Part shown: positions 13,022 through 22,197 of the stretch, in pieces | Numbering within the stretch: the stretch's first letter is position 1 | Layout of the letters: every line of letters starts with the position of its first letter | Source: an uncultured SAR86 cluster bacterium | Lineage (GTDB): Bacteria > Pseudomonadota > Gammaproteobacteria > Magnimaribacterales > Magnimaribacteraceae | DNA: 34,775 bases | Assembly: GCA_902606175.1 (NCBI GenBank) | Contig: CACLEZ010000013.1 | Coordinates: 1 to 34,775, forward strand | Direction of reading: 5' to 3' | Program-made: the position numbers and the translations under genes | The notes under the pieces: model-generated | The model's input: the letters and a program-made list of their open reading frames with translations, nothing else | Database searches by the model: none | Told to the model about the DNA's origin: nothing

Positions 13022-13443
13022 ACCCATTAAGAAAACAGAGACTCTATGCCTTGATTGCAGTTCTAATTGGGTCGCTATTAGCTACATGGCTAGTTGTTTC
13101 TGCTTTATCCGAGAATATGAATTTGTTTTATTCACCTAGCGAAATATTAAAAGCTGATATTGATGAAAATGTTTTAATCAGAGCTGGAGGAATGGTGAAG
13201 CAAGGATCTATTGAAAAAAGTAAAGATTCTTTAAATGTCAGATTTACTGTCACAGATTATCAAAATGAATTGATAATAAATTACGAAGGTATATTGCCTG
13301 ATTTATTTGACGAAAATGCTGGAGTGGTTGTAAGAGGAAATTTGAAAACTGATGGCTCCTTTAAGGCAATTGAAGTTCTTGCTAAGCACGATGAGAATTA
13401 TATGCCTCCAGAGGTCGCCAAGTTAATTGAGGCGAATGGATGA
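13018..13443 (+). CDS. ccmE: periplasmic heme chaperone CcmE
   Basis: CcmE binds heme covalently through a histidine and carries it to CcmF. The 141 residues have an N-terminal membrane anchor (about 10-30) and an OB-fold periplasmic domain. The heme-attachment motif LAKHDENYMPPEV has the binding His near 124 and the axial Tyr near 128. The start overlaps ccmD by 4 bp and the end overlaps ccmF by 4 bp. Confidence 0.96.
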   Translation: MNPLRKQRLYALIAVLIGSLLATWLVVSALSENMNLFYSPSEILKADIDENVLIRAGGMVKQGSIEKSKDSLNVRFTVTDYQNELIINYEGILPDLFDENAGVVVRGNLKTDGSFKAIEVLAKHDENYMPPEVAKLIEANG

Positions 13444-15347
13444 TACCTGAATTCGGCCATTTAATTTTAATTGTTCATTTAGTTTTGAGTCTATTGGGTG
13501 GAACACTGCCACTTTTAGTAGTTTATGCAAACTATAGATCTCTTGAGATTTCGATAAAGAAGCTATCAGTTACACTTTTTATATTAATAACCATCTCTTT
13601 TCTATCTTTGATTTATTCTTTTCTTGTCGACGATTTTTCTGTTGCATATGTCGCTCAAAACTCCAATATCAATTTACCAGTTTATTATAAGTTTGCAGCA
13701 ACATGGGGAGCCCATGAGGGATCATTAGTTCTATGGATTCTGGCAATGAATGCTTGGCTGATAGGCTTTATCTTTTTTACACATTCTAAAGATAAAGACT
13801 TCCTGGCAACCGTATTTTCTATTTCTTGTCAGGTTATCTTTGCTTTTTCACTATTTACACTCTTCACATCCAATCCTTTTGAGAGAATTCTACCTATACC
13901 TCCTCTAAATGGAGCTGATCTTAATCCTTCACTACAAGATTTTGCTTTTACAGTGCATCCACCCTTACTTTACTTTGGATATTCTGGTTTATTGATCCCT
14001 TTTGCTATAGCAGTATCTGCAATGTTGTTTAAAAAAGATACTAGAGAATGGGCGAGTTACTCTAGACCTTGGACGCTTCTATCTTGCAGTTTTTTAACAT
14101 TGGGAATAGCGTTGGGAAGTTGGTGGGCTTATTATGAATTAGGTTGGGGCGGATGGTGGTTTTGGGATCCTGTAGAAAATGCAGCTTTCATACCTTGGCT
14201 TCTATCGGTTGCTTTATTCCATTCTTTGATCACCAGTCAAAATAGAGGAGTATTTGGTAAGTGGTCTATTCTTCTTTCAATCTTTGCTTTTGCTACAAGC
14301 TTACTGGGTACTTTTTTGGTTAGGTCAGGAATATTAACTTCTGTGCATGCCTTTGCTTTAGATCCTGAAAGAGGCCTGTTTATTTTAGCCATTCTTGCAT
14401 TCTTTGTAATAGGAAGTCTTTTGATCTATTCAATAACGGACTTTGGGCATGTTGAAGAAAATAAATATGAGCTCACTTCCAAAGAATTTGGTTTCTTATT
14501 GAATAACCTGCTACTTGTTGTTCTTGCTATCTCAATTTTATTTGGAACAATTTTTCCCCTTATCTACGAAGCATTTACCGGAGGAAAGCAAATATCTGTA
14601 GGGGCACCTTACTTCGAAATTATACTTTTCCCCTTTGCCTTGGCATTAGGATTGCTTCAAGGCGTTGCCCTTTATCTCTCTTGGGGCAAATCTTCATCTT
14701 TTAGTTTTTTACCTAGACTACTCATAGAGTCTTTATCTATATTTTCGCTAATCATTCTCATTTTATTTGTTCTCTTTGATAATCTATATCTCAGTTCTTT
14801 TGCGACAATATTTTTAGCCTCTTGGATCTTAGTAGGAACATTACAAATAACCAAAAAAAGAAATTTGAGCTATTGGAACTTCTTGAGAAAGAGATTAGCC
14901 GTAACATTTGCTCATGCAGGAATGGCCATTCTGACCATTGGAGTAGGGGTAGTATCAAGTTACTCACTGGAAAAAGAGATAATCTTATCGCCTGGAGATT
15001 CAACAGAATTCAGTGATCAAACCATTAATTTCCAATCTATAGATGATCTATTGGGACCAAATTACACATCTAAATCTGCAGTTGTCTCTTTTGACGATGG
15101 AAGCGGACTTTCTAATATATTAACTGAGAAAAGAACTTATTTACCCTCAGGCCAGATAACAACTGAGGCAGGAATTCAAGCAGACCTTTTCAAAGATTTA
15201 TATGTATCGATTGGAGACAATTTACAGTCTAATATTTGGTCTTTTAAGATTCAAATTAAACCTTTCATACGTTGGATTTGGCTAGGTGCTCTTTTGATCG
15301 CAATTGGTAGTTTCTTGGCAGGAGTAAAACAATTTAAAAGAAGATGA
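13440..15347 (+). CDS. ccmF: cytochrome c heme ligase subunit CcmF
   Basis: CcmF, with CcmH and CcmI, attaches heme to apocytochrome c. It is a 635-residue polytopic membrane protein of normal length. The WWD signature GGWWFWDPVENAAFIPWL lies at about 237-254. VHPPLLYFGY (172-181) carries a conserved histidine, and KFAATWGAHEGSLVLW (84-99) matches the family's N-terminal signature. It overlaps ccmE and ccmG by 4 bp each. Confidence 0.96.
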   Translation: MIPEFGHLILIVHLVLSLLGGTLPLLVVYANYRSLEISIKKLSVTLFILITISFLSLIYSFLVDDFSVAYVAQNSNINLPVYYKFAATWGAHEGSLVLWILAMNAWLIGFIFFTHSKDKDFLATVFSISCQVIFAFSLFTLFTSNPFERILPIPPLNGADLNPSLQDFAFTVHPPLLYFGYSGLLIPFAIAVSAMLFKKDTREWASYSRPWTLLSCSFLTLGIALGSWWAYYELGWGGWWFWDPVENAAFIPWLLSVALFHSLITSQNRGVFGKWSILLSIFAFATSLLGTFLVRSGILTSVHAFALDPERGLFILAILAFFVIGSLLIYSITDFGHVEENKYELTSKEFGFLLNNLLLVVLAISILFGTIFPLIYEAFTGGKQISVGAPYFEIILFPFALALGLLQGVALYLSWGKSSSFSFLPRLLIESLSIFSLIILILFVLFDNLYLSSFATIFLASWILVGTLQITKKRNLSYWNFLRKRLAVTFAHAGMAILTIGVGVVSSYSLEKEIILSPGDSTEFSDQTINFQSIDDLLGPNYTSKSAVVSFDDGSGLSNILTEKRTYLPSGQITTEAGIQADLFKDLYVSIGDNLQSNIWSFKIQIKPFIRWIWLGALLIAIGSFLAGVKQFKRR

Positions 15348-17040: not shown

Positions 17041-19509
17041 ATGAGACTCAATTCTATCAAGCTTTCTGGCTTCAAATCTTTCGTTGACCCAACTTCTGTT
17101 ACGTTCCCTTCAAGTATGTCGTGTATCGTTGGCCCAAATGGTTGTGGGAAATCTAATGTTATAGATGCCGTTCGTTGGGTTCTAGGTGAGAGTTCGGCAA
17201 AAAATTTAAGAAGTGATTCTATGACTGATGTAGTTTTTAATGGCTCATCTTCACGAAAACCAGTCTCAAAAGCTTCAGTAGAATTATTTTTTGACAATAA
17301 AGAGGGACGAATAGGTGGAGAATTCTCAAGTTATAGTGAAATCTCTGTAAGGCGAAGTTTAGAATTAGATGGTCAATCTAATTACTATTTAAATGGAACA
17401 AGCTGCAGAAAAAAAGATATAACTGATGTTTTCTTAGGTACAGGATTAGGACCTAGATCTTATGCAATCATAGAACAAGGAATGATATCGCAATTGGTAA
17501 GCGCTAAACCTGAAGAAATGAGAGGCTACATAGAAGAAGTAGCAGGTATCTCAAGATACCTTGAGAGAAAAAAAGAAACCGAATCAAGAATAAAAAGAAC
17601 TAAAGAAAATTTATCAAGATTAGATGATTTAAGGGAAGAGATTACGAGATTATTATTTAAACTCCAGAGACAAGCCAAGGCTGCAGAAAAATATCATGAG
17701 CTAAGAAAGGATGAGACGCAAGCTCAATTAATACTTCTAGGTTCTAAATGGAGAGATGTTTCATCAGCACTGATAATAAAAGAACAGGAAGTGAAGAATC
17801 AGGAACTCAAAGTCGAAAAGATAAATTCTGAAAAAAATACATCTGATAGCGAGATTATTAAACTAAGGGCAAAGCAAATTGAGCTACAGACTGCATTAGA
17901 TAAAGTTCAACAAGAGTTTTATAGTTTCGGTGCCGATATATCTAGAACTGAACAAGATATTTCCCTTAAAAAAGACAGAGTTAATGAAATAAATGAAAAA
18001 ATTTCAACTAATTCAATTCTTATTGATGCACGATCTAAGGATTTAAAAAATCTTGAGGAAAATAAATCGTCTGCTCAGAAAGAACTTATTAATATTGAAA
18101 AGGAATTAAAGTTTCTTAAAGAATCGGGTGATGAGGAATCTAATAAAGCTGAAGCTAAAAAAATAGAAGGCTCTTGGCTGGTGTTTATAACTCAAACCAA
18201 AAACTTAATATTAGATCTTTCCACTGCTATTGAAAATATACAATCTAAGTTGTTTAAAAAAGAATCAATAGAAGATGTATTTGCAAAGGTAGATTCTATT
18301 CGGAAGGAGATAAGTAACCTTGAATCCGAACCAGTAAGGTTAACTAAGTTGACGCAAGATTTTTTGATTAATGCATCTGAAGGTGCGAAGCAACAAAGAA
18401 TAAACTTAATTGATAAAACTGATAAGTATGCTGAATTACAGTCAAAACTTGCTTCACTCAATTCTGAAGGATCTCATTTAGATGGGAAGATGCATGACCT
18501 AATAAAAGAAAATTTAAATCTCGAAGTGGAGTCGAGTGAATTGAAAGAGCCAATCAGTGAAATACAAAAGAAGCTTGATTCACTTTTATCAGATAGACTC
18601 AAGGTTGAGGATAAATTGCTACAATCAAGGAAAGATATTGAAGAATGTAATGCCTCTATACATAACATAGAAAGAGAAAAGATCGAGAAAGAGCAAGCCG
18701 CAATAATACTTAGAGAGCTGCTAGAAAATCTTAGGCTAGACAGACAAGCCTCGAAGATTGAGCAAGAGAATATTGAATCACAAGTCGTTGGTTTAAATGG
18801 AAATCTCTCAAAAATAAAAGAAGATTTAGATAAAAACAAAACAGTTGAGAACTACGCTGCTGAATTAGAGGAAATAGAATTAAAGATTTCTAGATTGGGT
18901 GCAATAAATCTTGTGGCAATGGAAGAATATGATCAAGAGTTAAAAAGAAAGACATTACTTGATGAGCAACATAAAGAACTTATGGAGGCTCTAGAAACTT
19001 TAGAAAGAGCTATAACTAAGATAGATAAAGAAACTCGTACGACTTTTAAAGATACTTTTGATAAATTAAACAAAAGTTTATCTCTATCTTTCCCAAAATT
19101 ATTTGGAGGTGGCCATGCTGAATTGGTGATGCTGGGAGATGATTTACTCACTTGCGGAATAGGAATTACTGCAAGACCACCAGGGAAAAAGAATGCAAGC
19201 GTTTCTCAATTGTCAGGTGGTGAGAAAGCACTTACTGCAATAGCCACTGTCTTCGCTTTTTTTGAACTTAATCCAGCCCCTTTCTGTCTTCTTGATGAGG
19301 TAGATGCACCTTTAGATGATCTCAATACTATGAGATTTATCGACCTTGTTGAGGAGATGTCCCAGAGAGTCCAGTTTGTATACATCACTCACAATAAGAT
19401 TTCTATGGAAAAAAGTAAGCATCTTATGGGAGTTACAATGCAAGAGCCTGGTGTTTCTAGAATGGTAGCAGTTGATGTGGATCAAGCTGTGGAAATGGCT
19501 GCGAGTTAA
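17041..19509 (+). CDS. smc: chromosome condensation ATPase SMC, short form without recognisable hinge
   Basis: SMC proteins organise and separate chromosomes with ScpA/ScpB. Both head halves are intact: Walker A GPNGCGKSN (31-39), Q-loop IIEQGMIS (143-150), signature LSGGEKAL (724-731), Walker B CLLDEVDAPLDD (749-760), and a C-terminal YITHNK..ME..LMGVTM. The protein is only 822 residues against about 1150-1190 for bacterial SMC. Between the heads I see coiled coil (about 165-360 and 430-620) joined by a short segment (361-430). The roughly 150-residue globular hinge with its glycine-rich motifs is missing. The frame is continuous, with no sign of frameshift. The gene order smc-zipA-ligA is that of many gammaproteobacteria. 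The RBS AAAGGAA lies upstream of the ATG. Confidence 0.92.
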   Translation: MRLNSIKLSGFKSFVDPTSVTFPSSMSCIVGPNGCGKSNVIDAVRWVLGESSAKNLRSDSMTDVVFNGSSSRKPVSKASVELFFDNKEGRIGGEFSSYSEISVRRSLELDGQSNYYLNGTSCRKKDITDVFLGTGLGPRSYAIIEQGMISQLVSAKPEEMRGYIEEVAGISRYLERKKETESRIKRTKENLSRLDDLREEITRLLFKLQRQAKAAEKYHELRKDETQAQLILLGSKWRDVSSALIIKEQEVKNQELKVEKINSEKNTSDSEIIKLRAKQIELQTALDKVQQEFYSFGADISRTEQDISLKKDRVNEINEKISTNSILIDARSKDLKNLEENKSSAQKELINIEKELKFLKESGDEESNKAEAKKIEGSWLVFITQTKNLILDLSTAIENIQSKLFKKESIEDVFAKVDSIRKEISNLESEPVRLTKLTQDFLINASEGAKQQRINLIDKTDKYAELQSKLASLNSEGSHLDGKMHDLIKENLNLEVESSELKEPISEIQKKLDSLLSDRLKVEDKLLQSRKDIEECNASIHNIEREKIEKEQAAIILRELLENLRLDRQASKIEQENIESQVVGLNGNLSKIKEDLDKNKTVENYAAELEEIELKISRLGAINLVAMEEYDQELKRKTLLDEQHKELMEALETLERAITKIDKETRTTFKDTFDKLNKSLSLSFPKLFGGGHAELVMLGDDLLTCGIGITARPPGKKNASVSQLSGGEKALTAIATVFAFFELNPAPFCLLDEVDAPLDDLNTMRFIDLVEEMSQRVQFVYITHNKISMEKSKHLMGVTMQEPGVSRMVAVDVDQAVEMAAS

Positions 19510-19510
19510 T

Positions 19511-22197
<2,687 letters not shown>

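Follow-up and report, generated by a model that had tools for sequence, protein, structure and literature searches.

An SMC orthologue with no recognisable hinge in SAR86 marine bacteria

Ring and loop-extruding-motor models of SMC proteins rest on dimerisation through the hinge. The smc gene at positions 17041–19509 (+ strand) of the stretch of SAR86 DNA analysed here (34,775 nucleotides, termed the window) was described in a preliminary description as an intact SMC ATPase that lacks this domain. This raises the question of what kind of protein the gene encodes and how two copies of it could be held together. We find that the protein is an orthologue of bacterial SMC with an intact head, no recognisable hinge and similar losses from both arms. 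It is under selection, its genome carries scpA and scpB, and the same form is present throughout the SAR86 genomes searched. On the joining of the two copies our conclusions are more guarded.

The smc gene of the window and its missing parts

The gene is one uninterrupted frame of 822 amino acids (aa) plus a stop codon, exactly as the preliminary description had it. Its product scores 807 bits against the NCBIfam model TIGR02168 (SMC_prok_B, cut-off 567) and matches Pfam SMC_N. The N-terminal half of the ATPase head (residues 1–165, positions 17041–17535), delimited by sequence, alignment and an AlphaFold2 model, carries the Walker A motif GPNGCGKS at residues 31–38, whose residues are invariant in alignment A1. 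The C-terminal half (positions 18955–19506) carries the signature motif LSGGE at residues 724–728 and the Walker B/D-loop LLDEVDAPLD up to residue 759. None of the three motifs is missing from any of the 128 SAR86 rows (97 distinct sequences), which agrees with the claim that both head halves are complete.

Genes for ccm-type cytochrome c maturation lie upstream of smc, and a zipA-like gene and ligA lie downstream. The zipA-like frame (19472–20161, +) matches TIGR02205 with an E value of 1.2e-4, which is under the cut-off of that model, and as listed it begins within smc; its real start is probably further downstream. The gene for NAD-dependent DNA ligase, ligA (20170–22197, +), is the conserved downstream neighbour of smc. 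A ccmF-like gene (13440–15347 in the window) stands upstream of smc in every SAR86 locus (86 of 86) that extends more than 3 kb upstream and in none of 14 full-length gammaproteobacterial loci.

No match to the hinge model PF06470 (SMC_hinge) is found in the 822-aa protein even up to E = 10, nor at E ≤ 0.1 in any of 61 SAR86 genomes. The same model detects the hinge in 12 of 12 full-length gammaproteobacterial SMCs. It also finds the hinge, more weakly, in all seven alphaproteobacteria-like SMCs used as controls, four of which come from one family and two of which fall under the cut-off. Furthermore, a profile–profile comparison of the SAR86 tip with hinges is null (probability 0.1), and a positive control of gammaproteobacterial against alphaproteobacterial hinges matches at a probability of 94.1. 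These results bear out the reported absence of the hinge. They come from separate PF06470 searches for SAR86 and for the putative SAR11 order described below, with the profile–profile comparison as additional evidence for family f128; the Pfam scans of alignments A1 and A5 cover the best 25 of 100 and the best 25 of 39 families, respectively, and PF06470 in one or two members could be missed there. Since no hinge was recognised, we file the protein as an SMC orthologue by descent and not as a canonical SMC.

A zinc hook at the arm tip was considered and rejected, as the middle of the protein holds no CXXC motif in any of the 128 SAR86 rows. The motif is likewise missing from 20 of 20 putative SAR11 proteins and six of six other short proteins.

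More than the hinge is gone. Against a reference profile of 16 full-length gammaproteobacterial SMCs (1168 positions), residues 1–372 of the window SMC correspond to positions 1–375 and residues 438–821 to positions 784–1167, almost without gaps. In a full-length relative the hinge occupies 525–621, within the missing stretch, so the hinge was lost together with parts of both arms: about 149 profile positions from the N-terminal arm and 163 from the C-terminal arm. The corresponding N/C losses in eight further SAR86 SMCs are 134/179 (L022), 161/165, 160/153, 157/146, 173/203, 184/178, 179/202 and 172/209, and those in two f128 proteins are 56/111 and 89/107; the ends of the matches are fuzzy, and in some pairs the two losses differ by 18–55. 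This comparison leaves aside L028, whose N-arm match extends to profile position 493 and overlaps its C-arm match, and also the 995-aa, f38 and SAR11 rows. For a rod to keep working, its two antiparallel strands have to shorten to a similar extent.

The AlphaFold2 monomer model of the window SMC is of low confidence (mean pLDDT 73.9, pTM 0.38), and therefore only its secondary structure was used. It predicts one long helix at residues 170–361 for the N-terminal arm (residues 166–361, positions 17536–18123), where the profile match runs up to residue 372. Three helices (367–405, 411–427 and 430–443) are predicted for the tip at the hinge position (residues 362–446, positions 18124–18378), a segment with neither hinge similarity nor CXXC. 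A further long helix starts at 447 for the C-terminal arm (residues 447 to about 638, positions 18379–18954), whose extent follows from profile and model, the outer end being our estimate from the profile. Thus, a predicted helical tip of about 85 residues, evolving fast, stands in place of the hinge. The predicted arms (about 170–361 and 447 to about 638) are of similar length, as the preliminary description proposed, and the missing arm positions go beyond that account. The best Foldseek matches of the model are SMC head, Smc5/6, condensin, Mre11–Rad50 and cohesin chains.

Comparison with known systems places the protein close to the SMC of SMC–ScpAB, as represented by TIGR02168, with which it shares the head, the neighbourhood, descent and the presence of scpA and scpB in the genome. 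It differs from bacterial SMC in having no recognisable hinge, a helical tip instead, and arms of about 190 aa (our estimate, counting long helices only). The arm length reported for Bacillus subtilis SMC is 344, and arm length matters in that species with a period of about 91 aa; prokaryotic arm lengths are described there as having modes at 163 and 238 (PMC5344682), between which the window SMC lies. MukB, Wadjet-II/III and Acetobacter SMCs likewise have an altered far end of the arm, reported as channel-less hinges with a tendency to longer arms (PMC12647877), but they retain a hinge, in contrast to the SAR86 protein with its lost hinge and shorter arms.

Conservation and evolution within SAR86

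The SAR86 set comprises 61 genomes, the window's own and 60 relatives of the same order, from four families. A smc gene is present in 56, and the five genomes without it are 70–84% complete. The longest open smc frame in the set is no more than 1006 codons. All 26 genomes that are at least 90% complete have smc, as a whole short frame in 24 and as a frame cut at a contig end in two (G047 and G054). The same short architecture is seen in 78 loci of named records, most of them SAR86, two of which (L099 and L129) are fragments; on GTDB contigs, the identity of the window SMC to that of the nearest named SAR86 cluster bacteria reaches 97%. Whole SAR86 SMCs span 727–995 aa (821–827 in f1, 809–810 in f3, 727–736 in f2 and f4, and 995 in one genus), and no SAR86 relative combines the same flanks with a full-length smc. 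The protein sets exclude contig-end fragments (for example L029, L099 and L129) as well as L182 and L211, which the start-motif pattern missed.

The window's genome (1.32 Mb in 32 contigs, 80.7% complete) yields the 822-aa frame as its only SMC match; because this genome is 81% complete, the absence of a second smc rests mainly on the 26 SAR86 genomes with a completeness of 90% or more. MukB (PF04310) is found in none of the 61 SAR86 genomes, and an Escherichia coli control was matched. The preliminary description had proposed a search for scpA and scpB: ScpA and ScpB are each present in 57 of the 61 genomes, including the window's own, where the two genes adjoin each other on another contig.

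The gene order also held up. Downstream of smc, ligA lies in the same orientation in 83 of the 89 SAR86 loci with sufficient sequence, and 14 of 15 loci with a full-length gammaproteobacterial smc show this order too. This shared order indicates the same gene by place and by descent. Because distant gammaproteobacteria carry a full-length smc before ligA, the loss is assigned to the SAR86 line and not to an assembly fault. Indeed, the SAR86 relatives with the same form, along with low dN/dS ratios, support the earlier suggestion of a lineage-level in-frame loss rather than a damaged copy.

The ratio dN/dS over six near pairs, chosen because dS is saturated in four same-genus pairs, is about 0.05–0.06 for the whole gene and 0.06–0.14 for the tip (our calculation), which points to strong purifying selection on smc. 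The tip changes much faster than the head: between the window SMC and four same-genus relatives its identity is 43–63%, compared with 93–100% for the head halves (L009 was excluded here for its differing length). Across SAR86 the tip and the outer arms vary to the same degree; in full-length SMCs, by contrast, the hinge core is more conserved than the arms. Compared profile to profile, SAR86 tips, f128 tips and those of the putative SAR11 order showed no mutual resemblance. Within families, tip motifs are conserved and family-specific, such as SPxEKA and LKxLLxxIL in f2.

The 995-aa SMCs of one SAR86 genus carry a tandem duplication in both arms. In L146 (SAR86E record AMWX01000005.1), residues 218–345 are repeated at 338–465 (128 aa, 42% identity, E = 6e-37) and, in the C-terminal arm, residues 515–670 are repeated at 658–813 (156 aa, 42% identity, E = 1e-41), shifts of about 120 and 143 residues. 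The arm repeats of L037 are 32% and 35% identical. The 995-aa form is also present in L039, L139, L140 and L147, and the arm-by-arm comparison covered L146 and L037. As controls, no match was found between the N- and C-terminal arms, nor within the arms of the window SMC. Duplication in both arms suggests that the two-stranded rod was kept and lengthened again on both strands, and by eye a family-typical tip stands at the new end of the duplicated arms.

Short SMCs in other lineages

A phylum survey returned, among the matches listed, an 809-codon smc in G764, a genome consisting of a single contig of 1.2 Mb. In the order to which G764 belongs, 101 of 117 genomes have smc, and 98 of these 101 have frames of 799–891 codons; the gene is broken or cut in G909, G814 and G831. 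PF06470 matches over its cut-off in none of the 117 genomes. Two sub-threshold matches (15.6 and 13.9 bits) were to 99-codon frames with a stop that lie away from smc and were taken as noise. In twenty scanned 20-kb stretches, G764 has alphaproteobacterial tmRNA and the ffh RNA motif known from Candidatus Pelagibacter ubique (PMC2704228). The SAM-V riboswitch, listed for Pelagibacter in the same source, was not found in the scanned third of the genome. From the tmRNA, the ffh RNA, the small genome and the gene content, this order is almost certainly Pelagibacterales (SAR11).

Short SMCs with no recognisable hinge also occur in the gammaproteobacterial families f128 and f38 (genomes of 1.0–1.1 Mb), in all six of their genomes among a sample of 54 hand-picked, mostly small genomes. 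The SMCs are 926–944 aa in f128 (four read) and 932 and 937 aa in f38; for f38, the absence of a hinge means none among the Pfam matches listed (best 25 of 39 families) together with a reading of the sequence. The smc frame has at least 1127 codons in 40 of the 54 genomes, and hence a small genome does not in itself entail loss of the hinge region. The other 14 comprise the six f128 and f38 genomes and eight more, whose smc is cut or broken, encodes a hinge (G063) or has no clear match (G151 and G617). Counts from the class and phylum surveys are at-least values, taken from the matches listed.

Several short or otherwise unusual frames were seen in these surveys. Those of G069, G140, G092, G242 and G300 (L170–L174) run off their contigs and are not genuine short SMCs, and the same is true of G486, G402 and G257. 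The SMC of G063 (L232, 1000 aa) keeps its hinge at 443–536 on shortened arms, a case of short arms with no loss of the hinge. The frame of G315 (L233) closes at 840 aa despite the presence of hinge-region residues, indicating a frameshift or truncation. In G214 (C1, 453174–453771), a single-contig genome of 1.0 Mb, smc is split into two short frames, possibly a sign of SMC decay. Very long SMC frames of 1523–1531 codons were present, among the matches listed, in G456 (L177), G700 and G768, from one family outside the class. Downstream, the f128 loci (L226–L229) have a ligA match 17–29 bases after smc with no zipA hit between them, and the f38 loci (L230–L231) have a smc–ligA gap of about 700 bases.

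A tree of SMC heads (52 rows) was rebuilt after removal of L177, L222, L223 and L232, which had long branches. It unites the SAR86 rows with support of 100/100 and, with no actinobacterial sequences included, places them among gammaproteobacterial SMCs. The putative SAR11 rows also stand together (100/99) and group with alphaproteobacteria-like full-length rows, and f128 and f38 stand apart from SAR86, such that the best tree requires four changes in all. A single shared origin of the SAR86 and SAR11 short forms is rejected by the AU test (p = 5e-5). A single loss shared by all three gammaproteobacterial groups (p = 0.167) is not rejected, nor is one shared by f128 and f38 (p = 0.131). By these comparisons of head sequences, the short SMC arose separately in SAR86 and in the putative SAR11 order; the tests and the tree together show at least two independent hinge losses and suggest up to four.

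Sussfeld et al. (2025, PMC12153180) used a metagenomic gene catalogue to describe a 'hinge-less SMC' from a clade of marine Actinobacteria. As described there, it resembles the SAR86 SMC in having an SMC head on a coiled coil, neither hinge nor CXXC hook, and a marine source. That protein comes from Actinomycetes, whereas the cases described here come from SAR86, the putative SAR11 order, f128 and f38 and are accompanied by genomes, synteny and a tree (and, for SAR86, by scpA and scpB). The words SAR86, SAR11 and Pelagibacter do not occur in the main text of PMC12153180, and we found no other report of a hinge-less SMC in SAR86 or SAR11, nor of convergence, in the open-licence PMC literature. 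The kind of protein is therefore already known, and it is its occurrence in SAR86 and SAR11 and the convergence that appear unreported in the literature searched.

How two hinge-less chains may be held together

No other SMC was found in the genome and the hinge-less protein is under selection, so it very probably acts with ScpAB. We lean slightly towards an overall explanation in which it is an SMC orthologue that had its hinge removed and works in the ScpAB complex, its tips most likely pairing. On this account, an ancestral bacterial chromosomal SMC would have lost its hinge and about half of each arm, the outer part, through one or more in-frame changes on the SAR86 line. ATP would close two SMC heads on each other, ScpA together with ScpB would bridge both heads, and the shortened arms would lie as a rod. 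Weak pairing of the short helical tips would then hold the two copies at the far end, with the tip serving as a generic dimeriser in place of the hinge. An unrelated dimeriser can serve in B. subtilis, in which growth is reported as normal when an unrelated zinc hook takes the place of the hinge (PMC5344682). Counting against this explanation, the N- and C-terminal arms have sometimes lost unequal lengths, as in L022 and three other proteins. Moreover, the tip is the fastest-changing and a poorly conserved part of the protein, and tips of different lineages do not resemble one another, which speaks against a precise dimer interface; whether two copies pair through their tips is, in our judgement, evenly balanced.

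The main competitor, to which we give appreciable but clearly lesser weight, is an open-ended clamp: the tips would make no contact, and nothing but ATP-dependent engagement of the heads and bridging by ScpA would hold the chains together. An unconserved tip that is not recognisably a domain fits this arrangement, as does the retention of scpA and scpB. Also consistent with it is the report that hinge-less, hydrolysis-deficient (EQ) yeast Smc5/Smc6 sub-complexes associate when ATP is present (PMC8327961). However, the predicted tip of the window SMC has helix breaks instead of a tight turn, and the tip motifs typical of a family are shared by its members and, as judged by eye, persist where the arms have been duplicated.

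The protein might instead have left chromosome folding for another task, such as repair. RecN and Rad50 set a precedent as SMC-like ATPases without an SMC hinge, and Rad50/SbcC combines a head with an antiparallel coiled coil and likewise lacks this hinge. These shared features do not extend to the CXXC hook of Rad50/SbcC, which the SAR86 SMC lacks, and its equivalog score lies far over the cut-off. Furthermore, it is the only SMC found in its genome, MukB was not found, and scpA and scpB are retained, which makes a change of task improbable.

A hinge that is present but has diverged beyond the reach of sequence models is less probable still. PF06470 is indeed weak on alphaproteobacteria-like hinges, as the two controls under its cut-off attest, but it matched every gammaproteobacterial control, and the profile–profile comparison was null. 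Only about 65–85 residues are left, nearly all predicted to be helical, for a hinge model of 116 positions. Although the window comes from a draft genome, there is a negligible chance that the gene is dying or that its short frame stems from a deletion or a mended frameshift in the assembly: relatives with the same architecture in dozens of separate assemblies refute this, as does the low dN/dS.

Beyond SAR86, one can imagine that the most abundant streamlined ocean bacteria (SAR86, SAR11, other small-genome gammaproteobacteria and, on the evidence of the 2025 report, marine Actinobacteria) got rid of the hinge several times over, each time independently, that SMC–ScpAB in these organisms is an open-ended clamp closed by heads and kleisin with free tips, and that chromosomes can be organised without a closed tripartite ring. 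We advance this broader proposal only tentatively and consider it rather unlikely as a whole. Even so, nature has removed the hinge more than once and across whole lineages, and in SAR86 has left scpA and scpB in place, which offers a ready-made test of the function of this domain. SAR86 and SAR11 are among the most numerous bacterial groups of the surface ocean; if the SAR11 assignment is true, the trait occurs in two such groups and is testable in cultured SAR11 strains. The same loss throughout the SAR86 relatives examined and in the other group, in all likelihood SAR11, may mean that the hinge is dispensable.
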